A DNA stretch of 64,000 nt from Mucilaginibacter gracilis (lineage in GTDB: Bacteria; Bacteroidota; Bacteroidia; Sphingobacteriales; Sphingobacteriaceae), in contig NZ_RBKU01000001.1 in NCBI RefSeq assembly GCF_003633615.1, positions 930,001 through 994,000 of the forward strand, given 5' to 3'. Position numbers and translations under genes: made by a program. Positions within the stretch are counted from its first letter, which is position 1. Every line of letters starts with the position of its first letter. Under the pieces are notes generated by a model that saw only the letters and a list, made by a program, of their open reading frames with translations, ran no database searches and was not told where the DNA came from. This document shows positions 1,822 to 39,250 of the stretch, in pieces.

Positions 1822-3090
1822 ATGAAAATTAATGAAAAGCTCTCTATTTTGGTGATGCTCGAAAAGTCAAAGCTCACTTCAGACGGTAAGGCACCAGTGT
1901 TTATCCGTCTTACTGTAGAAGGGAAGCGGGCGGAAATGTCGTTAGGTCAAAAGGTGTTGCTTAATAACTGGAACATTGAAGCCGGTCAGGTAAAGGGTAA
2001 TTCCCAAGAGGCACGTCTTGTTAACAATGCTATTGACATGGCTAAAATTAAGCTAAGGCAGCATTATGACCACCTAAGTTTGAGTAATGATTTTGTGTCT
2101 GCCGCGATGGTGAAACAGGCATATCAAGGCAAGCAGGAAAAAGTTAAAGGCTTATTGGAAGTTATCGATTTCACAGTTGACAAAATGGACAAAAAAGTCC
2201 AGAACGGGAAACGTGCGAAATCGTCACTAACCAAATGGAAAACGACTAAGGATAAAGCTATCGCATTTATCAAATATGCCTATAAAACGGAAGATTTGCC
2301 CTTAAATAAACTTACAGTTTCATTCGCGGAAGATTTCATTGATTACCTGATGCTGGAACAGCATATCGAAAGTAATACCGCAAACAAATATTTAAAAACA
2401 ATTCGCGGCGTGGTTACCAATGCGGTTTCCCGAGGTTGGATTACGCATAACCCTTTATGTGCGTACCAATGCACTTATATTGAGCCTGAGCGGGATATAT
2501 TAGACGATGGTGAAATCTTGACTTTATATCACAAAAAAATGCCTGTGGAACGGCTTGAAGACGTAAAAAACGCATACCTGTTTATGTGCTTTACCGGCTT
2601 TGCTTATAAAGATGCAAGTTTGTTAACGCCTGAGAACATCGTTAATCACTTTGACGGGCAGGATTGGATCGTTAAGAACCGGGAAAAGGTAACTAAAGCA
2701 ATCTGCCGCGAAAATGTCCCGCTATTACCTATTGCCAAAGAGATCATTGCCAAGTATGCCGATAATCCGTATTGCAGAAAACATAACGTCCTGCTTCCGG
2801 TAAACAGTAATCAAAAGTATAATGCCTACTTGAAGGAAATTGCTGATATCTGCGGGATAAAAAAGAATCTGACAACGCATACTGCCAGGCACACATTTGC
2901 TACCACTGTTACATTAGCCAATGGCGTACCGTTAGAAACTGTCAGTGCGTTGCTCGGTCACAGGTCAATAAAAACAACTCAGATATATGCAAAGATTGTT
3001 GCACAGAAAATCAGTGTGGATATGAACGACCTTAAAGAAAGGTTGATTGTAAAAATGCCTTCGATCATGTTAAAAACTCATGCCGCTTAA
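1822..3090 (+). CDS. int: Tyrosine recombinase / ICE integrase (CTnDOT-like)
   Basis: This is a site-specific recombinase expected to integrate and excise the element. The 422 aa comprise an N-terminal arm-binding domain (about 1-95), a SAM-like core-binding domain (about 110-215) and a C-terminal catalytic domain (about 225-400). Visible catalytic residues are H353 and R356 (HTARH), H380 (LLGH) and nucleophile Y389 (TQIYAK). The first catalytic arginine, expected in a TGLRxxD motif, is Ala261 in TGFAYKD. IntDOT of CTnDOT also lacks this arginine. The gene lies next to tRNA-Asp and points into the element. Two hairpins follow the stop. Confidence 0.95.
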   Translation: MKINEKLSILVMLEKSKLTSDGKAPVFIRLTVEGKRAEMSLGQKVLLNNWNIEAGQVKGNSQEARLVNNAIDMAKIKLRQHYDHLSLSNDFVSAAMVKQAYQGKQEKVKGLLEVIDFTVDKMDKKVQNGKRAKSSLTKWKTTKDKAIAFIKYAYKTEDLPLNKLTVSFAEDFIDYLMLEQHIESNTANKYLKTIRGVVTNAVSRGWITHNPLCAYQCTYIEPERDILDDGEILTLYHKKMPVERLEDVKNAYLFMCFTGFAYKDASLLTPENIVNHFDGQDWIVKNREKVTKAICRENVPLLPIAKEIIAKYADNPYCRKHNVLLPVNSNQKYNAYLKEIADICGIKKNLTTHTARHTFATTVTLANGVPLETVSALLGHRSIKTTQIYAKIVAQKISVDMNDLKERLIVKMPSIMLKTHAA

Positions 3091-3120
3091 TAATTATTAA
3101 GGCCATCAACAAATAAATAT

Positions 3121-3187
3121 ACAGCCGGTTGCAGGGAAAATGAGCGCCTATAATCACCAACCAATCATTTTCCCTGCATCGGGCTGT
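3121..3187 (+). repeat. 23-bp stem-loop downstream of the integrase
   Basis: Arms 3121-3143 and 3165-3187 are complementary at 21 of 23 positions around a 21-nt loop. The structure is followed by a T-rich stretch (GTTTCTTTTATC). It starts 30 bp after the integrase stop and may be a first terminator or an mRNA 3'-stabilising hairpin. Confidence 0.6.
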
Positions 3188-3201
3188 GCCGTTTCTTTTA
3201 T

Positions 3202-3236
3202 CTCAACCTCTTCCGCAGGAAGTGGTTGAGTTTTTT
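3202..3236 (+). terminator. Rho-independent terminator of the integrase
   Basis: CTCAACC (3202-3208) and CTTCC (3210-3214) pair with GGAAG (3218-3222) and GGTTGAG (3224-3230). There is one T-T mismatch and a GCA loop, followed directly by TTTTTT (3231-3236). Confidence 0.85.
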
Positions 3237-3362
3237 CAATGATTGTTCCGCTAAACTAATGGTGTCGTCTGATTTACCATGTTAAAAATCAAACTGCCTC
3301 TGTTCCATATAACACAACATAGTCTGAAAGAACAATGAAGATTTAAGCCGTGGTTTTCTTTG

Positions 3363-3418
3363 CTTCTTTCTTTTGTGTCCGGCAAAAGAAAGAAGTCCCC
3401 GCGCTATGGGGGGACTTC
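3363..3418 (-). terminator. Terminator with overlapping alternative hairpins at the end of the ssb-parB operon
   Basis: On the minus strand, GAAGTCCCC/GGGGACTTC (3410-3418 with 3392-3400) forms a stem whose 3' arm runs into TTTCTTTTG. This is terminator-like and lies about 95 bp past the last minus-strand gene. A second perfect 13-bp inverted repeat (3363-3375 with 3383-3395, 7-nt loop) shares bases 3392-3395 with the first stem. The two hairpins therefore cannot both form fully. Confidence 0.6.
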
Positions 3419-3511
3419 AAAGGGCAATGCAGCCAAACGGTCTTTGTTACCTGTAGCAATTGATTGCAGCTTGTATGGTTTGCTATCTTTCATTGTAGCT
3501 GTTATAGTTTG

Positions 3512-3760
3512 TTACAGAAATAACCGCAGGTTTTCAGCTTCCTTCCTGTTTTGTCCGTTAAGTGGCCGCCACTGTTCGCACATCTCACAAAGGATGGCAT
3601 AGTAAACGATCTTAGCCAGGCGGTAGCTGTCTTTTGGTTCACCTGCCAAATAAATCGCACCACTGGCAACGGCTTTGTTATACAATTCTTCTATTGCTGT
3701 CAGCGGACTATTGGCTGCCATCAGCGATTTGAACATTATTCTAAATTCTTCCGGTTCCAT
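3512..3760 (-). CDS. Hypothetical protein, last gene of the ssb-parB operon
   Basis: The product is 82 aa and I do not recognise its family. It looks soluble and helical, with two cysteines in LCEMCEQW and no signal peptide or membrane segment. The start ATG is only 2 bp downstream of the parB stop, so it is very likely co-translated with the ParB-like protein. A terminator-like hairpin pair follows. It may be an ICE-conserved accessory protein. Confidence 0.65.
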   Translation of the reverse strand: MEPEEFRIMFKSLMAANSPLTAIEELYNKAVASGAIYLAGEPKDSYRLAKIVYYAILCEMCEQWRPLNGQNRKEAENLRLFL

Positions 3761-3762
3761 AG

Positions 3763-5673
3763 TTATTGGTTTTTGTCTGTTTCCAGTTCTTCACCTGTTG
3801 GGCGGGTGCGTTCCAATATGTCTATTTTCTTTTGCAGGTCGGAGATACGCTGTTGCAGTTTTTCGGTGCGTTTGTCTGTTTTTTCCTGCTGTTCCTGTTC
3901 GATCTGCGCAATATTTACCCCTGCACTTTCCGCCACTTTCTGCAATACCTCGCCGGTGTCGTTGCCGGGCAACTTGCTTTCTGATTTACCCGCTATGGCC
4001 TTGCGGATCATGTAGCTGTATTGCTGCTCGGTTAGCTTTTCCATGATTTCGTAAATGGGTAGCTCCCTGTTTTCAGCATTGAACAGCACATCTTTTACAG
4101 AACTGCGGGTTGACCAGTCAAGGGACTGATAAACAAGCAATCTTGCCGCTACAAGGTCGGCAGTGGTCAGCGCGTTTACATTATTCATGTCCTTGTTCAA
4201 TTCGACAAATGCAGTATGTATGTTCACATGTACCTTTTCGCTATCGAGCTCCTTTGCCCTTTGCTCCCTGCTGTTTAGCCGCCCGATCTCCAAAACCAAT
4301 AGTTCAGGGGTGGCGTTTCCGGTTTTAATCGCTTCCTGCACTTCTTTGGCAGATACTACTGCACCGTTATTGGTGGGAGCTGAGGAGACACCAAGCAAAA
4401 ACAGGACGGGAACTACCTTTGTTTCTGAAACAAGCAAGGCTTTAAACAGGTCGCTGGATTGTATCAGTTGGTTATATTCTTCTGTGTCTGCCTCGTACTC
4501 CTGTAATGCAATCTGATAACCGGCTTCATTAAATTCAGGCGTTTCTTCTTCCGCTCCATCGTATTCATCATCTTCCAAACCATAACCCGTTTCAAAATAG
4601 TCTTCCCTTTCGGGCTTCACAGGGGCGTTGATAACGGTCACTTCATTCTTTCCATACGTTGGCAATTCCGCTACGCCTGTTATGCTATTCAGTAGCTTTT
4701 TAATCCGGTCACTAAGCCCCCATTCATAAAGCAGGGCTTGCGGCGGCTGCGCTGCAAATTCGGTGGTAAACATTTGTATAAACTGTGCATTGCATTTGGA
4801 CTGGTAGCAGTCTCTGTTGGTGCAGGTTGCTTCTTTTGATAGTTCGGGAAACAGGCTTTTTAATGTGGCTGTATTGAAAGGGCAATTCGTGCAGGCTCCC
4901 ATATTCGGGATTAACTTTTTATCCTTGATATTAAACGGCGCATTATTCAGGTCATATTTATATCGGGAGAGCACATACCGCAGGTTGTGAATTTTAAAAT
5001 TTGTGATTTCCTTCCAGTCTGCGCAATGCTGTTCAAAAAGTTCCTGCTGCGACTCGGCAGAAAGAGCGGCAATATCAAAGGCTTCCTGCATATTAATGGC
5101 ATCTGCAAAAAACATTTCCTGCATCGGCTCGGTCAGGTCTAAAAATTTGATGCGGCTATAAACAAAGGTCTTTGATTTACCCAAACGTCCGGCGATTTTT
5201 TCAATGGACATATGCACTTTTTGCATTTGCCCGATGGCCTGCGCTTCTTCCATCGCGTGCGGGTTTTCCCGTTGCAGGTTTTCGGCTAACTGTATCTCGA
5301 TAACCTCTGCATCGGTCAGCACTTTGATAATGGCGGGTAATTCAGTAAGTCCTGCGATCAATGCCGCCCTTAACCTCCGTTCTCCTGCTACGAGTTCATA
5401 CCGGCCCGATGGCATTTTACGCAAGGTTACAGGGCTGATAATGCCATGTACTGCTACTTCCCCGGCGAAGCTGTCAAGTGCTGCCTGTGAATAGTATTTA
5501 CGGTAATTCAGGGGGCTGAAATCTATTGCAGCTACTGCCACCTTCTCAAATATACCCTCCTTGCCAATGGCAGGGAGGGTTTGTTCTTTCGATACCGCTG
5601 TTATTGCGGTTGTCTTATGGGTGCCATTCTTTTTAACGGCTGCTTTCTTTTTCGCTATTATTGGAGTTGACAT
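3763..5673 (-). CDS. parB: ParB/RepB/Spo0J-family nuclease/partition-like protein
   Basis: The 636-aa protein has a ParB N-terminal domain (about 45-150). Visible motifs are GERRLRA at 97-103 and ENLQRENP at 131-138. A helix-turn-helix follows at about 150-180 (IEKIAGRLGKSKTFVYSRI). A cysteine cluster (C261, C264, C284, C289, C294) looks like a zinc site. The C-terminus (about 580-625) is a coiled coil rich in Gln and Glu. It is much longer than chromosomal ParB (about 300 aa). Long ParB-like proteins are common on Bacteroidetes mobile elements, where they may act in maintenance or gene control. It is not adjacent to the ParA gene at 60.7 kb, so the two need not be partners. Confidence 0.85.
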   Translation of the reverse strand: MSTPIIAKKKAAVKKNGTHKTTAITAVSKEQTLPAIGKEGIFEKVAVAAIDFSPLNYRKYYSQAALDSFAGEVAVHGIISPVTLRKMPSGRYELVAGERRLRAALIAGLTELPAIIKVLTDAEVIEIQLAENLQRENPHAMEEAQAIGQMQKVHMSIEKIAGRLGKSKTFVYSRIKFLDLTEPMQEMFFADAINMQEAFDIAALSAESQQELFEQHCADWKEITNFKIHNLRYVLSRYKYDLNNAPFNIKDKKLIPNMGACTNCPFNTATLKSLFPELSKEATCTNRDCYQSKCNAQFIQMFTTEFAAQPPQALLYEWGLSDRIKKLLNSITGVAELPTYGKNEVTVINAPVKPEREDYFETGYGLEDDEYDGAEEETPEFNEAGYQIALQEYEADTEEYNQLIQSSDLFKALLVSETKVVPVLFLLGVSSAPTNNGAVVSAKEVQEAIKTGNATPELLVLEIGRLNSREQRAKELDSEKVHVNIHTAFVELNKDMNNVNALTTADLVAARLLVYQSLDWSTRSSVKDVLFNAENRELPIYEIMEKLTEQQYSYMIRKAIAGKSESKLPGNDTGEVLQKVAESAGVNIAQIEQEQQEKTDKRTEKLQQRISDLQKKIDILERTRPTGEELETDKNQ

Positions 5674-5702
5674 AATATTTAGTTTTAAGTAATTAAAAAT
5701 GG

Positions 5703-6080
5703 TTAGTCCATGAAAAGCAGGTTTACCGCCTTGCTGAACTTTTGGTTATTCAGTTTTCTTTCCGTGGTGTACTGAATGAGGCAATGAACGAGATACACTG
5801 CGGCATAGCCATCAAAAAGCTGGTCGGCAAAAAGGCTGCTGCTTTTCTTTAGCTTATCGCCGTATTGGCTGATCTTTCTTTCAGCTTCTGCCGCAAGGGA
5901 TAACCAAAGGTTAACGGCGATCAGCGGGTGTTGCCATGTGGCCTTTATCTGCTCCTGTTCTTCGGCTATGGTTTGGCTCATGCCTGTTATATATTTTAGT
6001 AAGGCGGGTATTTCCGCAGGAAACAGGCCGTGTAATAATTTCGCCCTTTCCACATTATTTAAATTTTCCAATGGTTTCAT
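5703..6080 (-). CDS. Hypothetical ICE protein
   Basis: A 125-aa soluble, mainly helical protein of no recognised family. No signal peptide or clear motif is visible. It lies 29 bp upstream of parB and 17 bp downstream of the next gene, inside the same leftward operon. Its position between ssb and parB suggests an element-maintenance role, but nothing in the sequence shows its function. Confidence 0.65.
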   Translation of the reverse strand: MKPLENLNNVERAKLLHGLFPAEIPALLKYITGMSQTIAEEQEQIKATWQHPLIAVNLWLSLAAEAERKISQYGDKLKKSSSLFADQLFDGYAAVYLVHCLIQYTTERKLNNQKFSKAVNLLFMD

Positions 6081-6097
6081 AACTCGTCTTTTAGCTG

Positions 6098-6313
6098 TTA
6101 TTTGATCTTATAAATCCTTGTCTTTCTTCCGGTGGTATAGCGGATGCCGTAGCCGTTGGTTTCTATAATACCCCGTATCAGGTTTCCCGCTTGTTTTGCG
6201 TCCCAATCATCCTGCGCCGTCATATAGCAGGTGTAAAGCCTTTCCAGTATTTTGATGCTTCTTGCCAGTTCTACAAGTGCTTTCCGCTCGGTTTTATCTT
6301 TTAAAATGCTCAT
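6098..6313 (-). CDS. Small hypothetical ICE protein
   Basis: A 71-aa basic protein ending in TGRKTRIYKIK, with no membrane segment. The family is not recognised. The charged tail could bind nucleic acid, which is inference only. It belongs to the leftward ssb-parB operon. Confidence 0.6.
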   Translation of the reverse strand: MSILKDKTERKALVELARSIKILERLYTCYMTAQDDWDAKQAGNLIRGIIETNGYGIRYTTGRKTRIYKIK

Positions 6314-9450: not shown

Positions 9451-11208
9451 TTACAGCTTCACCTTTTTTGAAGGCTTGGGGGTTTGGTCATTTTTTTGCT
9501 CCTGCCGCTTGTTTTTTTTAGTGCTATCGGAAATATCATCTGTTACGTCTTCGGATTTTGCCTTAGCGTTTAGTTTGAGGTCTTTGATATCCAGTTTGTT
9601 CATGGCCTCGTCATAGGCGTTCAGCTTCCATTCTTTAGGATTGGCGGAAAGGTATATTTTTTCAGAAGTGCCATTGTTTTCCCAATTGGCTTCTGTGAGG
9701 TTCCCTCGTTTGAGCGATTTGAGCATCCGTTCGGTGGCCTGCGTATCGTCCCGTTCTTTTAAGGATAATTCTTTCAGGCTGTCTTCGATCTTAAATCCGT
9801 AGTTCTCGGTGAACTTCTCCACCTCGTAATTGTTGTTTTTGTCTTTTTGCGAGAAATCGAGCTGCACCCAGGCAGGATAGGTCTTTTTGATATCGTCTTT
9901 GTAAGACAGGTTGGTATGTACCGCCCGGCCATCAAGCAGGTTATAGGCTTCCTTTGCGGAAATATGCTGGTTCTGATAAAAGGTTTGCGTGATGCCTTTT
10001 TCATTTTCTCCCGGCTTTTTTAAGGTAGCGTCCATACGGTTGAAAAAATACATTTCATCTTTTTCTCCTTTACGGAACTGCAGGGCATATACCATGTCGT
10101 CTTCGCCTATTTTCGTTGAATGATTTAACTGAAAAGCGGGCGCTTTTGAATTGATGTTTTTTTCCAGTTCATCATTTAGTTTGGTGTCAAAGCCGGCGTA
10201 TTTAAGGCTTTCTTTCAGGTAATTTAAATTTTGCTCGTTCATAATCAATGAATTTTTAAGTGTTATTGGATAATTGATAAAGTGGGAAGGAAAGATGGAA
10301 ACTGTATAATCCTCCGGTGATGCCTTTTGCAGACGGACGTTGTATAAATCCAGTTTATCTTCAGCTCTATTAAATTTTGCGAACATATACTGGTGTATCT
10401 GCGCCGGATCACCGGGCGAATGGATATGGTGCCACCTGTATTCCATTATCTTAGGATCGTTGCTGTACTGGTAATTTGCGGTCAATAATGTCAGTCCGCA
10501 ATTGGCCGGAAGATCCCCTTCCAATCCCTGTTTCAGCGGTTTGTTTTTGTATTGCCCGATAAGCAGATAGTCATACCGCTCATTCATAGCGGAGGAAAGG
10601 TTAACGGCATGTTCCATATAATCACGGGCCTGTTCAAAGGAATTAAATGACTCCATTACCCGGTGGCGGTGGCCGATCTCATAGACCTGATGGCCGGGAT
10701 GCTCATGCTGCACAACATGGTATTGTGCTATTTCCTGTTCAGGCATAATTGTTTTGATCCATTCTACAGGGAAGACCAATTCATTTTGCAGCGTGTCACG
10801 CCACCCTTCGTATTGACTTCCGGGTATCAGGCGGACCGATTGTTTTTTCATCTGATCAGCTAATTGACCGACACTTTTAACCAAGTCAAATTCCGTGTTT
10901 ATGTTGGTCAATGCCTCCGGTTGCAAAGCGGCCTGGAGGCTGTCTATAGCCATAAAACGATAATCGGCGGGTATTTCATCTGGTCGCTCTACGCCGTGAT
11001 CAAGGCCAGGGCTGTCAATAAGATCGTCGGGGAAATTACGCCCGTAGCAATACTGTTCGGCATCGGCTGAGGAATCAAAGAAATGGAAGCGAAGCCAGTC
11101 GGGTGTCTGGCTTTCGCGCTCATTAAACGCCACCCACCGATGACCTTTGGCCCTTGCCTCTTTGAGTTCGGCGATCATTTGCGGTATTTCGGCTGGTTCG
11201 ATTTCCAT
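9451..11208 (-). CDS. Conserved ICE protein of unknown function, end of tra operon
   Basis: A 585-aa soluble protein. The N-terminal part (about 1-110) resembles a small mobile-element domain (EIPQMIAELKEARAKGHRWVAFNERES). The middle to C-terminal part (about 320-500) contains LNYLKESLKYAGFDTKLNDELEKNI and a region of alternating strands. The last 40 residues are Lys-rich and probably disordered. Similar large proteins are common on Bacteroidetes conjugative elements, but I know of no assigned function. It lies 20 bp after traN and is the last gene before the terminator. Confidence 0.75.
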   Translation of the reverse strand: MEIEPAEIPQMIAELKEARAKGHRWVAFNERESQTPDWLRFHFFDSSADAEQYCYGRNFPDDLIDSPGLDHGVERPDEIPADYRFMAIDSLQAALQPEALTNINTEFDLVKSVGQLADQMKKQSVRLIPGSQYEGWRDTLQNELVFPVEWIKTIMPEQEIAQYHVVQHEHPGHQVYEIGHRHRVMESFNSFEQARDYMEHAVNLSSAMNERYDYLLIGQYKNKPLKQGLEGDLPANCGLTLLTANYQYSNDPKIMEYRWHHIHSPGDPAQIHQYMFAKFNRAEDKLDLYNVRLQKASPEDYTVSIFPSHFINYPITLKNSLIMNEQNLNYLKESLKYAGFDTKLNDELEKNINSKAPAFQLNHSTKIGEDDMVYALQFRKGEKDEMYFFNRMDATLKKPGENEKGITQTFYQNQHISAKEAYNLLDGRAVHTNLSYKDDIKKTYPAWVQLDFSQKDKNNNYEVEKFTENYGFKIEDSLKELSLKERDDTQATERMLKSLKRGNLTEANWENNGTSEKIYLSANPKEWKLNAYDEAMNKLDIKDLKLNAKAKSEDVTDDISDSTKKNKRQEQKNDQTPKPSKKVKL

Positions 11209-11228
11209 TATGTAAAAATTTGAGGCAG

Positions 11229-12074
11229 CTACCTGGTAACCGGTCTTGCTTTTAATATTTCTTTGCCGTCCAGTGTCATAGCTAAATGACGGTCGCCATT
11301 TTTTTCATACAGTTCAACAGCAAGGTTCTTATTGTCGGCAATAGTGAATTTTTTAAAGGCCATGACGATAGTCCGGTGGCTATTACCGTTAACAGTCAGG
11401 GTGTCGCCCGGATAACAAGCAAGCGGCGTGATCTCCTGCTCCTGTACCGCCATGCGTTTCACCTTTTTGCGGTCGCGGATATAAAAGCGGATAAAGTCTA
11501 CGGTATAATTGATGTGTGATTTATTATTGACCCGTAAGCGGTAAAACATCACATCGTTAGCTAAGTAGATACCTTCCAGTTTCATTTTCATCTGATCGTT
11601 TTTGTCCTTGACATTCATAAAGGGCTTAACCAGCGTAGCACGGGCTGAAATATCCCTTACCTGTGTTTCGTTCAGGCTTTCTCCTGAAAAGCGCACTGCT
11701 GAACGTTCCCGTAATTCCTGCTGGTGGAGGTCGATAGCCTGTGTAGGTAAGTCGGTAGTCGTAGTGACTATAAAGCTGTATAGCTTGCCATCTGCGGTAA
11801 TAACGCTCAGGTTACTTTCGGGTATGCCCTGATGGTCGGCTTTCAGCTTGATCACATTTTCCGCGTCCTTTACCTTTTCGGCCAGCACATAGCGGCTTCC
11901 CCGGTCGACGCTTTTTACGGCTGTTGGGAAAAGGATCATTAATGTTTTCTGGTCGCTGATCTGAATGCGGTAGGGACTGATGATCGCCGAAGAATCAAAA
12001 TTTTTAACGGTTTGTGCCATTGACAGGCACGGTAACACTACATACATAAGTATGGCGGTAATGAGCTTTTTCAT
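11229..12074 (-). CDS. traN: Conjugative transposon protein TraN (DUF4138, VirB9-like)
   Basis: A 281-aa periplasmic or outer-membrane-associated transfer protein. A Sec signal (MKKLITAILMYVVLPCLSMAQ) is followed by a beta-rich domain. VAEKVKDAENVIKLKA and MFYRLRVNNKSHINYTVDFIRFYIRDRKK are typical of TraN/DUF4138. TraN is the VirB9-like part of the outer core of the type IV secretion system. It directly follows traM, as in CTnDOT. Confidence 0.9.
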   Translation of the reverse strand: MKKLITAILMYVVLPCLSMAQTVKNFDSSAIISPYRIQISDQKTLMILFPTAVKSVDRGSRYVLAEKVKDAENVIKLKADHQGIPESNLSVITADGKLYSFIVTTTTDLPTQAIDLHQQELRERSAVRFSGESLNETQVRDISARATLVKPFMNVKDKNDQMKMKLEGIYLANDVMFYRLRVNNKSHINYTVDFIRFYIRDRKKVKRMAVQEQEITPLACYPGDTLTVNGNSHRTIVMAFKKFTIADNKNLAVELYEKNGDRHLAMTLDGKEILKARPVTR

Positions 12075-12100
12075 AGAATTAATATTTTGTTTAATGGTGA

Positions 12101-13393
12101 TTAATTATTGAGTTGATTGTTGTTAAGCAACAGGACATTGTAACCTGCTTTCACGGTGACTTTGACCAGCTTTACTTTCTTGCTGAAAAATCCTTTGGCT
12201 ACCTGTATGCCCGCACTGGCCGCCTGTGCGCCGACCGAAGGACTATAACCCAGCGGGTCGTAGGATTGCATCGCCTGATCCACACCGTCTTTGGCCGCAT
12301 CCCTGCCAATGGCTCCGGGTACGCAGATACCGGGAATGCCGTCCCGGTCAAATACTTTCATTGATACCGGGAATACCGAGTTATGGACGCTGATCGTCCT
12401 GATGTCGATATTCAGCCGTTCCCCTTCGACCGAGCAGGAGCCGAATACGAAAGTGCTTTTGGGTATGAGCCGGCCATTGATATAAATGTCCTGCAAGAGC
12501 CTCAGCTTGATGGTCGATCCGGTCGTTAAGGTTCGGGTCTCATGTACTACAGCTTCGATGGCATTATCAGTAGCATTGTTGGTGCTGTTATTATCGAGGT
12601 CATAAAAGCCATTGCCGCGCGGGGTATCAAAATAGGTAATACGGTTATCAGGGGTGTCGGCATGATTGGGAATGATCGTTTGATCTACCGCATCAGCGGT
12701 TCCGCTGACAGGAAAGGCGATGCCTCTTTCTTTTTCCGATTGTGCTTTCAGTTTTTGACGTACCAGCGCCGGATTTTGTATCTCCTGTATCTTATCGAGC
12801 ATCGTACTTATCTGGTCCATTTGCGGGTCGGCGGCACCTGATGTTCCTGATTTTTGGATGATGGCCTGCAACCGCCTGATCTCCGCTTCTGAATCGTTGC
12901 TGCCTGCGCTATTCGCCTGCTGTTGTACCGTGGGTGAGGGTTGGCTGATCTGCCGGTTTAATGCAGACAGTCGTTGATTGATCTGCTGCTCATTGGCCGC
13001 CAGGCTGGCGCTTGAATTACTCAGGCTGCGCGTGGTAAAGCTGCGGCCTATGGTGCCGGTTTTCGGTGCTATGCCGGTATCAAAGCGTTTCACCGTATCG
13101 CCGGGCTGCCGTGTAGTATCGGCTTTATAATAGGGATCGTCTTTACGGGCCTGCTGGTTTTTCAGTGAATCTTTTTGTGCCTGCTCGTAAAAGCCCAGTT
13201 TGTTTTCAAGGCTGTCGTTTTTCAGTTTAGCGCCGGGCACTTTCATATTTAATCCGCCCACCTGCGCTGTTGCCGATTGCGCTTGCGCTGTTTTACCGCC
13301 GCCGAGCGCCCAGAACAAGAGGGTGATAAAAGGTAATACCAGTAAGGGCAGCATCAGTAATAGTTTTTTCTGCTTTTCATTTGTCTGTTTCAT
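12101..13393 (-). CDS. traM: Conjugative transposon protein TraM (VirB10-like)
   Basis: The 430-aa protein has an N-terminal inner-membrane anchor (about 10-35, LLLMLPLLVLPFITLLFWALGG) and a long Gln/Ser/Pro-rich periplasmic linker (about 40-270). The C-terminal beta domain (about 285-390) includes STIKLRLLQDIYINGRLIPKSTFVFG, the VirB10/TraM signature. It would bridge inner and outer membranes in the mating channel. The start overlaps the preceding gene by 17 bp, indicating translational coupling. Confidence 0.92.
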   Translation of the reverse strand: MKQTNEKQKKLLLMLPLLVLPFITLLFWALGGGKTAQAQSATAQVGGLNMKVPGAKLKNDSLENKLGFYEQAQKDSLKNQQARKDDPYYKADTTRQPGDTVKRFDTGIAPKTGTIGRSFTTRSLSNSSASLAANEQQINQRLSALNRQISQPSPTVQQQANSAGSNDSEAEIRRLQAIIQKSGTSGAADPQMDQISTMLDKIQEIQNPALVRQKLKAQSEKERGIAFPVSGTADAVDQTIIPNHADTPDNRITYFDTPRGNGFYDLDNNSTNNATDNAIEAVVHETRTLTTGSTIKLRLLQDIYINGRLIPKSTFVFGSCSVEGERLNIDIRTISVHNSVFPVSMKVFDRDGIPGICVPGAIGRDAAKDGVDQAMQSYDPLGYSPSVGAQAASAGIQVAKGFFSKKVKLVKVTVKAGYNVLLLNNNQLNN

Positions 13394-35891: not shown

Positions 35892-36014
35892 TTATTCATT
35901 CATTTTATCCCGTTCTCTCCGGTTATCTCTCCACAAGAGGATGATCCAGACAATCAATACGACACTAATGACGAATTCAACAGCAAGAACAAAGGCAGTA
36001 TTGGATTCCAACAT
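35892..36014 (-). CDS. Possible 40-aa single-pass membrane protein
   Basis: The frame reads MLESNTAFVLAVEF, continues through a strong hydrophobic helix (about 8-28, ending VWIILLW) and closes with a charged tail RDNRRERDKMNE. The topology is coherent and a terminator-like hairpin follows. No family is recognised and no promoter was identified. It lies upstream of the FecR-type gene. Confidence 0.4.
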   Translation of the reverse strand: MLESNTAFVLAVEFVISVVLIVWIILLWRDNRRERDKMNE

Positions 36015-36139
36015 TCAACGCTATAAATTATTTGCGCTGCTCGGCCCTTTCACTTCCTGTATACAGGTATGACGGGGAGCGGTAGTAGAACATCTGCTCT
36101 GAAAAAAAATATTTTTGAAAAAAATGAATAGATGTCGTT

Positions 36140-36181
36140 ATTCACAGGTTATCATACACTTTATTCATAGCTAATCATACA
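36140..36181 (+). repeat. Left 42-bp inverted repeat of the hydrolase/NmrA/HxlR cassette
   Basis: These 42 bp match the reverse complement of 39192-39233 at 39 positions. The outer end is ATTCACAG in both. The repeat consists largely of two tandem copies of a 23-bp unit (36141-36186 region, 19 of 23 identical). It lies between fecR and the last gene of the cassette. No flanking target duplication is evident. Confidence 0.8.
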
Positions 36182-36221
36182 CTTTTTTGATGGCAATGAT
36201 CTTTAGTGTCTAATCAGCTTT

Positions 36222-36256
36222 TAAATAAAAAAGCAGAACTTCAATTAAAGTTCTGC
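36222..36256 (-). terminator. Terminator of the NTF2-like gene operon
   Basis: On the minus strand, GCAGAACTT/AAGTTCTGC (36248-36256 with 36233-36241, 6-nt loop) is followed by TTTTTTATTTAA. It is 26 bp past the stop. A second small hairpin, CAGACG/CGTCTG, lies at 36260-36275. Confidence 0.85.
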
Positions 36257-36282
36257 CATCAGACGGGATCGTCTGTTTAAGA

Positions 36283-36723
36283 TCAATCGCTGGTCAATGA
36301 ACGCATCACTGCCAGGGAATCCATGTAATCACGCCAATGAATGATTTTCCGGTCCTTTATAGTGATGATAGAACAAAAGCGGTTGTCATAAGATTTTCCG
36401 GTGGAAGGCACCGTACCATGCACTTCGTACTCCAATATGATGACATTAGCCGGCTGTTGCGCTTTGTACATTCTTAAATGGTCTGCTGAATGCAGTACAT
36501 TGCTGTAACCGCTGAACCAATCCATATAAGCTTTTCTGCCCGATATCTTGTTGGTAAAGCCCGGAAAGTTGTACATGAATTCAAATACTGCATCATCTGC
36601 TACCGCATCCCAAAAATGCTCCCCGTCAACTTCCCCGGTAAGACCTTCCATGATGATGCTGAAAAAAGGCCCCGCATTTTTATTAAATCCAGGATGGTTC
36701 CTGTTGAGTTCAATCTTTTTCAT
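36283..36723 (-). CDS. NTF2-like / SnoaL-type protein
   Basis: A 146-aa single-domain protein of the cone-shaped NTF2 fold. Supporting features are DGEHFWDAVADDAVFEFMYNFPGFTNKISGRKAYMDWFSGYS and the terminal sheet RFCSIITIKDRKIIHWRDYMDSLAVM. Such proteins are small-molecule isomerases, hydrolases or binding proteins. It is the last gene of a three-gene leftward set with an alpha/beta hydrolase and an NmrA-like protein, which suggests metabolism or detoxification of a small compound. It has no signal peptide. Confidence 0.88.
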   Translation of the reverse strand: MKKIELNRNHPGFNKNAGPFFSIIMEGLTGEVDGEHFWDAVADDAVFEFMYNFPGFTNKISGRKAYMDWFSGYSNVLHSADHLRMYKAQQPANVIILEYEVHGTVPSTGKSYDNRFCSIITIKDRKIIHWRDYMDSLAVMRSLTSD

Positions 36724-36752
36724 AATGAATCATTCCAATGTTATAAAATTAC

Positions 36753-37790
36753 TTATTTCAATGCGTTTTTTAGTTCTGCCGCAGCCTGCAGCATGGATGA
36801 TCTCGTGGCGGCGATGTGCGCAAGCGGGTTAAGCAGGCCCCAGTCATGAATGACGCCGTTATAACGGGTCAGTGTTACCGCCACGCCGGCCTCATCCAGT
36901 TTACGGGCATAGGCTTCGCCTTCATCCCGCAACACATCATTTTCGGCGGTCTGCACCAATGCAGGGGGTAATCCTTTTAACTGGTCAGGGGTCGCGCGCA
37001 AAGGCGAGGCATAGATTTCATGACGTGCATTTTCGTCGGTCGTGTAGCTATCCCAGAACCAGATCATCATATTCCGGGTCAGGAAGCGGCCGTTTTCATA
37101 GGCATGATAAGACCCGTCGTCGAAAGCTGCATTGGTCACCGGCCAGAACAGCATTTGGAATTTAATCTCTGGCCCTTTTTTGTCTTTGGCCATCAATGCT
37201 ACGACCGCTGCCATATTGCCGCCGACGCTGTTGCCCGCAACAGCAAGCTTTTTACCGTTCACGCCTATTTCTTCGCCATGCAATGAAACCCATTTAGTGG
37301 CGGCATAAGCCTGGTTGATCGCAACCGGGTAATGCGCTTCGGGTGATGGCGCATAGTCGGGAAATACCGCAGCCAGCCCGCTTTCCACGACCAGGTCGCG
37401 GACGAAGCGGCGGTGCGTAGGATAATCCCCTAATACCCATCCGCCACCATGGAAGAACATGAACACGGGAATATCTTTTTTCGCACCGGCCGGCTTAACG
37501 ATATGGATATTAACTGTGATGCCATCCTGCGTGATGATCTTTTCCGACTCTTCAATACCGGAATAATCGACGGATACAGATTGCTGTGCGCCGGCCAGCA
37601 CTTGTCTTGCATCGGCGGGTGAAAGCTGTTCAAGCGGCTTACCACCACCGGAGTTTAAAGCCTTTAAAAAAGTACGTACATCCTTTAGGATCAAAGGATC
37701 ATTTTCTGCTTTGGGGTTGTTTTGGGCCATAACATTGAGTGTTATAATAAAAAGTAAATAAATGAGGGTTACTAATCTTTTGCGTTTCAT
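36753..37790 (-). CDS. Secreted alpha/beta hydrolase (HSL-type esterase)
   Basis: The 345-aa protein has a signal peptide (MKRKRLVTLIYLLFIITLNVMAQ). The oxyanion motif HGGGW is at 114-118 and the nucleophile Ser188 in GNSVGG. Acid and base are probably the Asp in AENDVLRDEGEAY and the His in VIHDWGLL. This is the hormone-sensitive-lipase family of carboxylesterases. It acts outside the cytoplasm, unlike its neighbours. It is 29 bp upstream of the NTF2-like gene. Confidence 0.93.
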   Translation of the reverse strand: MKRKRLVTLIYLLFIITLNVMAQNNPKAENDPLILKDVRTFLKALNSGGGKPLEQLSPADARQVLAGAQQSVSVDYSGIEESEKIITQDGITVNIHIVKPAGAKKDIPVFMFFHGGGWVLGDYPTHRRFVRDLVVESGLAAVFPDYAPSPEAHYPVAINQAYAATKWVSLHGEEIGVNGKKLAVAGNSVGGNMAAVVALMAKDKKGPEIKFQMLFWPVTNAAFDDGSYHAYENGRFLTRNMMIWFWDSYTTDENARHEIYASPLRATPDQLKGLPPALVQTAENDVLRDEGEAYARKLDEAGVAVTLTRYNGVIHDWGLLNPLAHIAATRSSMLQAAAELKNALK

Positions 37791-37817
37791 GATGCGGGTG
37801 TTTAAAAAATGATCGAT

Positions 37818-38714
37818 TTAGGCTGCGTTGTACGCCGCAGCGAACACGTCCCTGGCGAATACCTCTGCGGTGGTGGGTGATGAATTTTCAGCCGTCCGTT
37901 GCTGGTAGTTCATGATGCCGTTTTTCAGGGAAGTTTCCATGTTCACGATATCTTCAGCGACGTTTTCGGAAATGCCCTGACTGATCATACCCGCTTTAGC
38001 TTGTTCAACCGGAAATTCTACCAGTTGCAAATCGGGTTTGCCAATTGATCTTCCCAGGATACCGGTGATCTCGCTAAAGGAATAGTTCCGGTCGCCCAAA
38101 ACGGGCCGAACCACTTTGCCCTCAAAATCCAGGTTAGCTAATGCTTTTGCGGCAACAGCTGCCACGTCGCTGGTCGCTACCATCGGTATTGGGTGATCCG
38201 GGTAAGCGGTCGTGCCGTTGATCCCGCTGTTTTTGATGAGGTTGATATTGAGTAACGCATTATCGAGAAAATAAGCCGAACGCAGGTGCATGACATTGAC
38301 GTCTTTTAATTGGTTCAGCTTGACTTCCTGTTCAGCCAGGCCGGCAATTAGGCCATTGCCTTCGTGTAACTGTGCACCCGCGCTGCTCAGGCTGACCACA
38401 TATTGAATACCCGATCTTTTGATCGCCTCAATAGCCGCATCCCCGACTTCCCTTTGGAACGCCCGGTAGTCTCGTGCTGTGAAATTTGGTGGTAACAAAA
38501 TAAAGGCGCTGTCGGCACCCTTAAATGCAGCAGTCAATAAATCAGCATCGGTGATATCGCCGGGGATCAGTTCGGCCCCTGTATGACCGAACCTTTTTTC
38601 GAGGTCTTCCGACCTGGCAATTAATTTTACATGGTGTCCTTCGTTAATGAGAAGGTCTGCGATCTTACCGCCAACTTTGCCGGTGGCGCCTAAAACGACG
38701 ATTGTCTTTTTCAT
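37818..38714 (-). CDS. NmrA-like NAD(P)-binding protein
   Basis: A 298-aa atypical short-chain dehydrogenase. The N-terminal dinucleotide motif GATGKVG lies in KTIVVLGATGKVGGKIADLL. The NmrA/TMR-like core continues with ADSAFILLPPNF and YVVSLSSAGA. I use ATG 38714, nine codons inside the frame, because it starts the Rossmann strand directly. Related proteins are NAD(P)H-quinone reductases or redox sensors. The divergent HxlR gene supports a quinone/electrophile response. Confidence 0.9.
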   Translation of the reverse strand: MKKTIVVLGATGKVGGKIADLLINEGHHVKLIARSEDLEKRFGHTGAELIPGDITDADLLTAAFKGADSAFILLPPNFTARDYRAFQREVGDAAIEAIKRSGIQYVVSLSSAGAQLHEGNGLIAGLAEQEVKLNQLKDVNVMHLRSAYFLDNALLNINLIKNSGINGTTAYPDHPIPMVATSDVAAVAAKALANLDFEGKVVRPVLGDRNYSFSEITGILGRSIGKPDLQLVEFPVEQAKAGMISQGISENVAEDIVNMETSLKNGIMNYQQRTAENSSPTTAEVFARDVFAAAYNAA

Positions 38715-38768
38715 AAATTTTTTCTTTTTTGTTGAGGACAAATTTCTATATTTGATTTCATAATCACC

Positions 38769-38794
38769 AGTACATACTAATTTGTACTATAGTA
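38769..38794. promoter_or_regulatory. Putative HxlR operator in the divergent promoter region
   Basis: AGTACA (38769-38774) and TGTACT (38783-38788) form a dyad, overlapped by the palindrome TACTATAGTA (38785-38794). It lies between the divergent NmrA-like gene and HxlR start codons. The TACT...AGTA layout resembles known YodB-type HxlR sites. Confidence 0.55.
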
Positions 38795-38809
38795 TCTAAA
38801 AAGAAAGTA

Positions 38810-39163
38810 ATGAGAAAAACAACGTCAACCAACTTTTCTAACGAAGAAGCGCTGGCTGCTATTTGCCCGATGCACAATGTGATGCGGGTATTGGGCGGGC
38901 GCTGGAAGATCGCGCTGCTGTATTTTATCCACCAGGGCCATCACCGTTTTGGTTTATTGCAAAAGAAAATGCCTTTTATCACCACGAAAATGCTCAGCGC
39001 ACAACTCAAAGAACTGGAACAGGACGATCTGGTGATCAGAAAGATTTATGCTGAAATGCCGCCACGTGTCGAATACTCGTTAACCGAAAAAGCACAAACT
39101 TTATTACCCGTATTGGAAGACCTTTATAATTGGGGAGAACAATACATCACGGCCCAGGCATAA
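38810..39163 (+). CDS. HxlR-family transcriptional regulator
   Basis: A 117-aa winged-helix regulator. CPMHNVMRVLGGRWKIALLYFI at the N-terminus, KKMPFITTKMLSAQLKELEQDDLVIRKIY (recognition helix and wing) and RVEYSLTEKAQTLLPVL are diagnostic. Cys19 sits at the position of the redox-sensing cysteine in YodB/QorR-type members. It is divergent from the NmrA-like gene and probably represses it until a thiol-reactive compound modifies Cys19. Confidence 0.93.
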   Translation: MRKTTSTNFSNEEALAAICPMHNVMRVLGGRWKIALLYFIHQGHHRFGLLQKKMPFITTKMLSAQLKELEQDDLVIRKIYAEMPPRVEYSLTEKAQTLLPVLEDLYNWGEQYITAQA

Positions 39164-39191
39164 AAATCGCACAGATATAAGACAACATACA

Positions 39192-39233
39192 TGTATGATC
39201 AACTATGAATAAAGTGTATGATAAACTGTGAAT
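39192..39233 (-). repeat. Right 42-bp inverted repeat of the cassette
   Basis: The reverse complement matches 36140-36181 at 39 of 42 positions, with mismatches at 39200, 39202 and 39225. It sits in the 87-bp gap between convergent HxlR and sigma-factor genes, where a promoter operator would not be expected. Confidence 0.8.
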
Positions 39234-39250
39234 TATAACAATAGAGCCTT

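Follow-up and report, generated by a model that had tools for sequence, protein, structure and literature searches.

A probable non-autonomous Tn7-like cassette between a sigma factor gene and a FecR gene in Mucilaginibacter gracilis

The window analysed here is a stretch of 64,000 nucleotides from Mucilaginibacter gracilis (contig NZ_RBKU01000001.1). Within it, a 3.1-kb segment (36133-39240) separates the gene of an extracytoplasmic function (ECF) sigma factor from that of a FecR-type anti-sigma factor. We conclude, with a probability of roughly 0.88, that this segment is a non-autonomous Tn7-like element that is presumably mobilised in trans and usually lands in the gap between sigma and FecR genes. 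An earlier note on this DNA, made from its letters, had described 42-bp inverted ends matching at 39 positions, with tandem 23-bp units in each. Both descriptions hold: the best of 60 random places in the window, taken at the same spacing, reached 25/42, and a search of the window for the 23-bp unit returned four matches where 0.11 were expected. Each end contains two units in the same arrangement (36138-36160 and 36161-36183 on the left; cores 39190-39209 and 39213-39232, on the opposite strand, on the right). The inverted repeat reaches 7 bp further outward on each side, giving ends of 49 nt that match at 43/49 positions and have the form TGT...ACA. Directly outside both lies ATAGA, a perfect 5-bp direct repeat, and the statement in the earlier note that no target duplication was visible was therefore wrong. 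When TG...CA pairs in the sigma-to-FecR interval were scored for ends plus duplication, this pair reached 36 and the runner-up 23; the maximum in 30 shuffles of the end regions was 26.

Pfam analysis of the enclosed open reading frames (ORFs) agreed with the four genes that had been named in that note, namely NTF2-like, esterase, NmrA-like and HxlR, and with the ECF sigma factor and FecR genes outside them. The right end does lie between two convergent genes, those for HxlR and sigma, and neither the gene list nor Pfam gave a transposase or tns gene within the cassette. We therefore class it as a non-autonomous derivative and not as a Tn7-like transposon.

The M. gracilis genome contains a transposon with the same ends. 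A search for the 22-nt end unit with up to 3 mismatches gave 12 matches (reversed control, 0): four in the window, seven in one other region and one in a third, and a sigma gene and a FecR gene are present in all three. Two elements with window-type ends lie side by side in L013 (loci and genomes are given by L and G numbers). Element A (L013:3278-5579) carries an AraC regulator and an FAD monooxygenase. Element B (L013:5586-10338) carries TnsA, TnsB, a TniB-type TnsC and a 449-aa TniQ, with the domains TnsA N and C, Mu-transpos_C, TniB and TniQ, which is the gene set of a Tn7-like transposon. A profile of its TnsB and four relatives matched solved TnsB structures with a best E of 1.9e-59. A decayed element with window-type ends, in L014, holds genes for HxlR and a Fib_succ_major protein.

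These elements bear on two other accounts of the repeats. The earlier note had offered the alternative of a pair of regulator sites. On this account, a regulator such as HxlR would bind the repeats as operators and nothing would be mobile. Tandem 23-bp units and a regulator gene inside the cassette would suit such sites, yet the same ends flank TnsABC-TniQ and unrelated cargo, 5-bp duplications abut them, the right copy is placed between convergent genes, and the ORFs of element B include no HxlR gene. The 23-bp units are end repeats of whole elements, occurring as inverted pairs around unrelated genes, and we give the operator account almost no credence. Alternatively, the ends could belong to another TGT family, of the IS21 or IS481 type, with the Tn7-like set nested between them by coincidence. 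TnsB does score on both of those models, far under their cut-offs; element B and the element in G192, however, hold TnsA, TnsB, TnsC and TniQ just between such ends, and no IS21- or IS481-like ORF was noticed in the loci, where no search aimed at one was made. Such a coincidence is very improbable.

To follow the ends into other genomes, we searched a sample of 149 genomes of the genus, M. gracilis included. The window-type end pattern was present in 9 of them and the pattern of another end type, that of element D (see below), in 7, with 0 for both reversed-pattern controls. These longer patterns replaced an initial 17-mer search in which 24/251 genomes matched and the reversed control gave 7, mostly single; at one 17-mer match (L064, G125), no sigma/FecR or Tns gene was recognised in the wider stretch. 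G336 (L301) has the complete set of four window genes, again enclosed by window-type ends; the two cassettes align as far as the limits of the elements, at 83.9% identity over 3101 bp, and the duplication differs (GCAAA). The cargo proteins of L301 and the window are 86-96% identical (HxlR 112/117, NmrA 256/298, esterase 313/345, NTF2 128/146); for the flanking proteins the figures are 44/136 (sigma) and 88/306 (FecR). A three-gene version of the cassette splits a different sigma/FecR pair in G308 (L298), in the opposite orientation and with the duplication AATAT. The same genome holds two of the cassette genes at a second place (L299:9093-11121), with a perfect duplication, ATGAT, and no sigma/FecR found nearby; a 147-aa ORF, not FecR, has its start codon 90 bp downstream of this off-site copy. 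The HxlR of L014 recurs beside a window-type end in G189 (L302; 104/110 identical).

Since the same ends and the same cassette occur at different sigma/FecR pairs with different duplications, we regard mobility as settled. The suggestion of a non-autonomous mobile cassette made in the earlier note is thereby supported; within the M. gracilis genome, too, the same ends flank unrelated cargo and TnsABC-TniQ. Repeats without this cassette, which that note would have counted against a mobile cassette, do literally occur in relatives, but they bound other inserts, as a shared transposon end predicts. Perfect 5-bp duplications were present in 13 of the 18 elements with both ends located (the window, C, D, G192, G317, L298, L299, L300, L301, L305, L307, L308 and L310). 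The second end was not located in L303, L306, L066, L297, L302 and L062/L063, which are outside this count; in L066 (G186) it is the sigma-side end. The duplications of C and L308 were read by eye, and the perfect pair of L305 was second by total score and was picked for its TGT-starting ends.

Where do these elements insert? We took 22 distinct loci, located through end pattern or TnsB and not through gene context: five in M. gracilis, three with TnsB (G192, G186, G317) and 14 by end pattern. Not included in this set are L065, whose end is weak, the loci with distant TnsB (G263, G286, G313 and G409) and the other 17-mer matches. Same-strand ECF sigma and FecR genes were found on the two sides at 18/22 loci, with extra genes between the element and sigma or FecR in L300, L305, L306 and L308. 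M. gracilis itself has 39 FecR genes with a same-strand sigma gene up to 40 kb upstream (4 of 79 rows of the sigma listing, under the Pfam cut-off, were dropped). Eleven of these 39 pairs are split: at least four by Tn7-like elements, two by one insertion sequence (IS; L224, L225) and the others by extra genes. The 28 uninterrupted gaps measure 42-318 bp in a genome of 6.66 Mb.

The earlier note had proposed a search for sigma-FecR loci lacking the insert. G314 (L213) shows the gene order found around the window cassette but with nothing inserted: genes for a LytTR-like protein, a 122-aa protein, sigma and FecR follow directly on one another. The sigma factor is 48% and the FecR 39% identical to those of the window, and L213 is therefore a neighbourhood match and not an empty site at the nucleotide level. 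In G326, the best-scoring matches to the window sigma (54%) and FecR (42%) are split by a 272-aa gene without recognised ends (L212:4737-5555). We also considered a particular sigma subfamily as the target and found no support for it. In a tree of 18 targeted sigma factors (five from M. gracilis, 13 from other genomes) and 34 untargeted ones, all from M. gracilis, the targeted were scattered among the untargeted, with 15 changes against a shuffled mean of 15.0.

Within the gap, insertion appears to be anchored to the upstream side of FecR rather than to the sigma stop codon. At 16/16 sites, the element and the first FecR-side start codon are 75-131 bp apart, with start codons picked after inspection in the window (40-aa ORF), L298 (TTG start, 77 bp) and C (second ATG). 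At nine sites, a set without the window, L298 and L303, the standard deviation was 11.8 bp on the FecR side and 91.4 bp on the sigma side (P = 0.0006 against uniform placement). Sigma-side distances range from within the gene to more than 1 kb. The insertion in L309 is 45 bp inside the end of the sigma frame, yet 81 bp from FecR; that in L304, 274 bp past the sigma frame, is 109 bp from FecR. Two anchors on the sigma side were tried and discarded: a fixed motif in the 3' end of the sigma gene, for which column counts were near expectation, and a fixed distance from the sigma helix-turn-helix, which varied from 105 to 184 bp at the 8/10 sites where the motif was found. A loose A/T-tract motif begins 3-21 bp after the insertion at 13/16 sites; this is weak evidence, as the control comprised three mononucleotide shuffles run with fewer starts. 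The elements insert in both orientations: the HxlR end points toward sigma in the window and L301 and the NTF2 end does so in L298, and the tns genes run in opposite directions in D and G317. These elements thus show neither the fixed-distance recognition sequence nor the single orientation by which Tn7-like insertion is recognised.

We then compared the sites used by related transposases. TnsB relatives were found in 6 of the 149 genus genomes, M. gracilis included; the one in G263 is at comM and that in G313 is a 27% match. Among the named loci matched by the TnsB profile (best 80 of 207), the sole sigma/FecR locus was that of M. pineti, with a TnsB 59% identical. In the other 79, with TnsB identities of at most 48%, FecR was matched in none and a comM-like gene in 46, in 44 of these within 1.5 kb of TnsA; in the remaining 33, no comM-like gene was present in the stretch. 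The comM profile was built from two Mg_chelatase-family proteins, and we take these neighbours to be comM from their Mg_chelatase domains. The counts for FecR (0/79) and comM-like genes (46/79) at distant TnsB loci therefore indicate that site use follows the transposon lineage. At E 1e-120, the TnsB profile matched 5 of 399 family genomes, in 2/25 genera (the second genus is that of G409), and at E 1e-30 a TniQ profile matched, among 395 class genomes, only M. gracilis and G286, the latter with a comM-type element. No plasmid TnsB at 60% identity or more was present among the best 5000 records.

The smallest complete element, in G192, comprises TnsA, TnsB, TnsC and a TniQ of 426 aa, and its 5-bp duplication is perfect. 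Besides these genes, it holds no non-overlapping ATG frame of at least 90 aa that might be a TnsF, and it has no room for cas genes. Where a full ATG frame was seen (B, C, G192, L062), TniQ measured 413-449 aa. Against solved structures, the TniQ profile gave a weak match to TnsD only (E 0.0061), and a single-sequence AlphaFold model of the M. pineti TniQ was unusable (mean predicted local distance difference test score, 33.8). According to the available part of Faure et al. (PMC10293859), in loci with two such proteins one of more than 400 aa suggests direct target selection.

Several observations weigh against our conclusion. No flanking sigma/FecR genes were found in the stretch examined at L297, L299 and L302, and L062/L063 have sigma only. 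No perfect 5-bp repeat was found in L304 (6 bp by eye), L309 and B (4/5), A (3/5) or L014 (none). The window is an outlier (345 bp) when measured to the listed start of its FecR and fits only with the 40-aa ORF as first gene. Counts of conserved columns at fixed distance gave no target motif: on the sigma side, one column at 8/10 sites or more (0.40 expected; an earlier count gave 2 against 1.0), and on the FecR side no column at 12/16 (0.19 expected). Some tns sets look impaired, with the G186 TniQ split over two frames, the G317 TniQ separated from a short TnsC frame by a reverse-transcriptase-like ORF, and a TniQ frame without an ATG near its N-terminus in element D. In 11 of the 14 genomes that hold these ends, no TnsB relative (E 0.001) and hence no helper was found; 8 of the 11 are listed as 99-100% complete. 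Among the genus copies found, transposase-less ones outnumber tns-bearing ones. Finally, sigma/FecR gaps are also split by other inserts including IS, and therefore permissiveness of the gap contributes.

This last point leads to an account that we consider unlikely: the cassette is mobile, and its position reflects survival of insertions in a permissive AT-rich gap beside dispensable nutrient-uptake operons, with no active targeting. The other inserts in M. gracilis gaps, the lack of a fixed-register motif and the scatter of targeted sigma factors over the tree would all follow from it. It is less easily reconciled with 18/22 loci falling in gaps that make up so little of a genome, with the tight position relative to FecR, or with the preference of distant TnsB lineages for comM-like sites. 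The IS in L224 and L225 encodes a 490-aa DDE transposase (L224:2137-3609, L225:2573-4045) that is also present at L058:14830-16302, with the first 60 residues identical. Its presence in two further sigma/FecR gaps and, within element D, near FecR indicates that the gap attracts unrelated insertions too. We nevertheless favour a Tn7-like element with a preference for the sigma/FecR gap.

The features of the cassette and its target flanks are listed in Table 1. At a guess from the protein families, the cargo would be a small regulator-plus-enzyme module.

Table 1. Features of the window cassette and the genes on either side of it
Feature	Position	Strand	Remarks
FecR-type anti-sigma factor, 329 aa	34798..35787	-	Listed TTG start, 345 bp from element; Pfam FecR 3.6e-15, FecR_C 6.7e-17
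40-aa ORF, first on FecR side	35892..36014	-	Hydrophobic by eye; ATG 118 bp from element; read from sequence
FecR-side A/T-tract, promoter-like region	36015..36127	-	Target flank; putative promoter role
Target-site duplication, left copy, ATAGA	36128..36132	.	Direct repeat
Left transposon end, 49 nt, TGT start	36133..36181	+	Two 23-bp units, presumed TnsB sites; same end family as element B
SnoaL_2/NTF2-like cargo, 146 aa	36283..36723	-	Pfam E 1.4e-9
Abhydrolase_3 esterase cargo, 345 aa	36753..37790	-	Pfam E 4.7e-69; NCBIfam matches all under cut-off
NmrA-like NAD(P)-binding cargo, 298 aa	37818..38714	-	Pfam E 1.1e-23
HxlR-type regulator cargo, 117 aa	38810..39163	+	Pfam E 6e-31
Right transposon end, 49 nt, ACA finish	39192..39240	-	Inverted left end, same two-unit layout
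Target-site duplication, right copy, ATAGA	39241..39245	.	Direct repeat
ECF sigma factor, 199 aa	39251..39850	-	Target flank; stop codon 10 bp from element

Other elements of the M. gracilis genome extend this picture. Elements C (L015:875-14071) and D (in L058) have TnsABC-TniQ sets between other ends, at sigma genes, and tns remnants lie at sigma genes close to either end of the chromosome record (L062, L063). Across the A-B-C array, the duplication is perfect for C, on the FecR side, 4/5 for B and 3/5 for A, as if insertions had been added on the FecR side. Element C measures 13 kb, has the duplication ACAAA and carries, among other cargo, a P-type ATPase and a fusion of an AcrB-family pump with an outer-membrane efflux domain; an apparent solo end of the same type precedes it. 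The remnants in L062 (~9647-13133) and L063 (~2500-6150), each with a TnsB fragment, TnsC, TniQ and sigma, are 100% identical over most of ~3.5 kb, either as a real repeat or as an assembly overlap. The monooxygenase of element A (L013:3353-4474) is a predicted Tet(X)-family flavin monooxygenase, matching TetX2 structures over residues 2-373 with E 1.8e-150; a more distant family member (146/353 identical) is cargo of L306 (G314). Two more M. gracilis gaps hold inserts. In L065 (6082-7448), the sigma-FecR gap holds a GH43 gene and a single weak end-like site (position weight matrix score 5.3; shuffle maximum 2.2), possibly an old member of the group. In L226 (1681-4155), short-chain dehydrogenase, polyketide-cyclase-like and AraC genes form a cassette-like insert without recognised ends. 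In L297 (5676-9080), L304 (8421-11834) and L308 (7954-11343), proteins of 1129-1137 aa combine an AraC-type helix-turn-helix with MacB/FtsX permease domains; they are carried by, or adjoin, elements of two end types.

How might the cassette move? TnsB made elsewhere in the cell would recognise the two 23-bp units in each near-symmetric end, and TnsA and TnsB would excise the cassette and join it at the target. TnsC and the 413-449-aa TniQ, as selector, would direct it to the new site, where 5 bp would be duplicated. The usual target would be the ECF sigma-FecR gap, 75-131 bp upstream of the first FecR-side start codon, so that the insert would separate the sigma gene and leave promoter-like DNA with FecR. 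We infer that the promoter is the anchor. More specifically, and as a doubtful possibility for now, this Tn7-like clade may recognise the promoter region of the FecR operon and not, as Tn7 does, the 3' coding end of a gene. TniQ or TnsC could then read promoter DNA itself or bound ECF sigma/RNA polymerase. Yeast Ty elements provide a precedent in being guided to RNA polymerase III promoters.

In mobile insertion cassettes (MICs), passenger genes lie between the ends of an autonomous element and are mobilised in trans. The cassettes described here likewise occupy several genomic places, share the ends of an autonomous element, and carry passengers and no transposase. To our knowledge, known elements of the MIC type, or of the type called TIMEs, derive from IS or Tn3-family elements; the cassettes here differ in having Tn7-like ends. 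TIMEs are other transposase-less elements, as far as the accessible parts of the papers tell (PMC4133298, PMC13367494). With Tn7-like transposons such as Tn7 at glmS and Tn6230 at yhiN, as presented in the consulted part of a review (PMC11406308), B and the G192 element share the four genes in order, TGT...ACA ends, repeated subterminal units, insertion beside one kind of gene and a 5-bp duplication (perfect in G192, 4/5 in B). They differ in landing in the sigma/FecR gap, of which the M. gracilis genome has 39. Moreover, Tn7-like elements control their orientation (PMC11406308, same part) and typically have asymmetric ends (PMC13370975, in excerpt), whereas the elements here have near-symmetric ends and both orientations, and most copies are without tns genes. 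The Tn6022-type elements that target comM (PMC10293859, PMC11406308, both in part) are similar in that the nearest TnsB relatives outside our clade are often at comM; our elements are in the sigma/FecR gap and not at comM, and that of G192 has no TnsF-like frame.

Landing sites named in the accessible sections of the review (PMC11406308) include glmS, yhiN, comM, parE, tRNA genes and plasmid resolution sites, with guaC, yciA, ffs and rsmJ for guide-RNA-directed elements. The word 'sigma' is absent from those sections, in which FecR was not searched for. The accessible text of Faure et al. (PMC10293859) has neither 'FecR' nor 'rpoE', and those of its 19 occurrences of 'sigma' that were displayed are a supplier name; Benler et al. 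have neither 'sigma' nor 'FecR'. We found no description of a sigma/FecR landing site in a literature search that most subscription papers were beyond the reach of, nor, in the searchable literature, of near-symmetric ends in both orientations or of transposase-less copies in 11 genomes.

Tn7-like elements are known to use one or a few conserved chromosomal sites via a dedicated selector. Distant relatives of the lineage described here are often at comM; the lineage itself seems to draw on a large paralogous family of sigma/anti-sigma junctions. It thus presents a change in target choice that can be put to the test and may connect transposition with ECF promoters. If the promoter reading is true, each genome would offer dozens of safe sites shared by a fleet of transposase-less cassettes. 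A near-symmetric, orientation-free, four-protein Tn7-like system may also be of technical interest. Transposase-less copies persist in genomes without a detectable helper, and through these elements small regulator-plus-enzyme modules, one with a putative Tet(X)-family monooxygenase, may spread among Mucilaginibacter-like bacteria.

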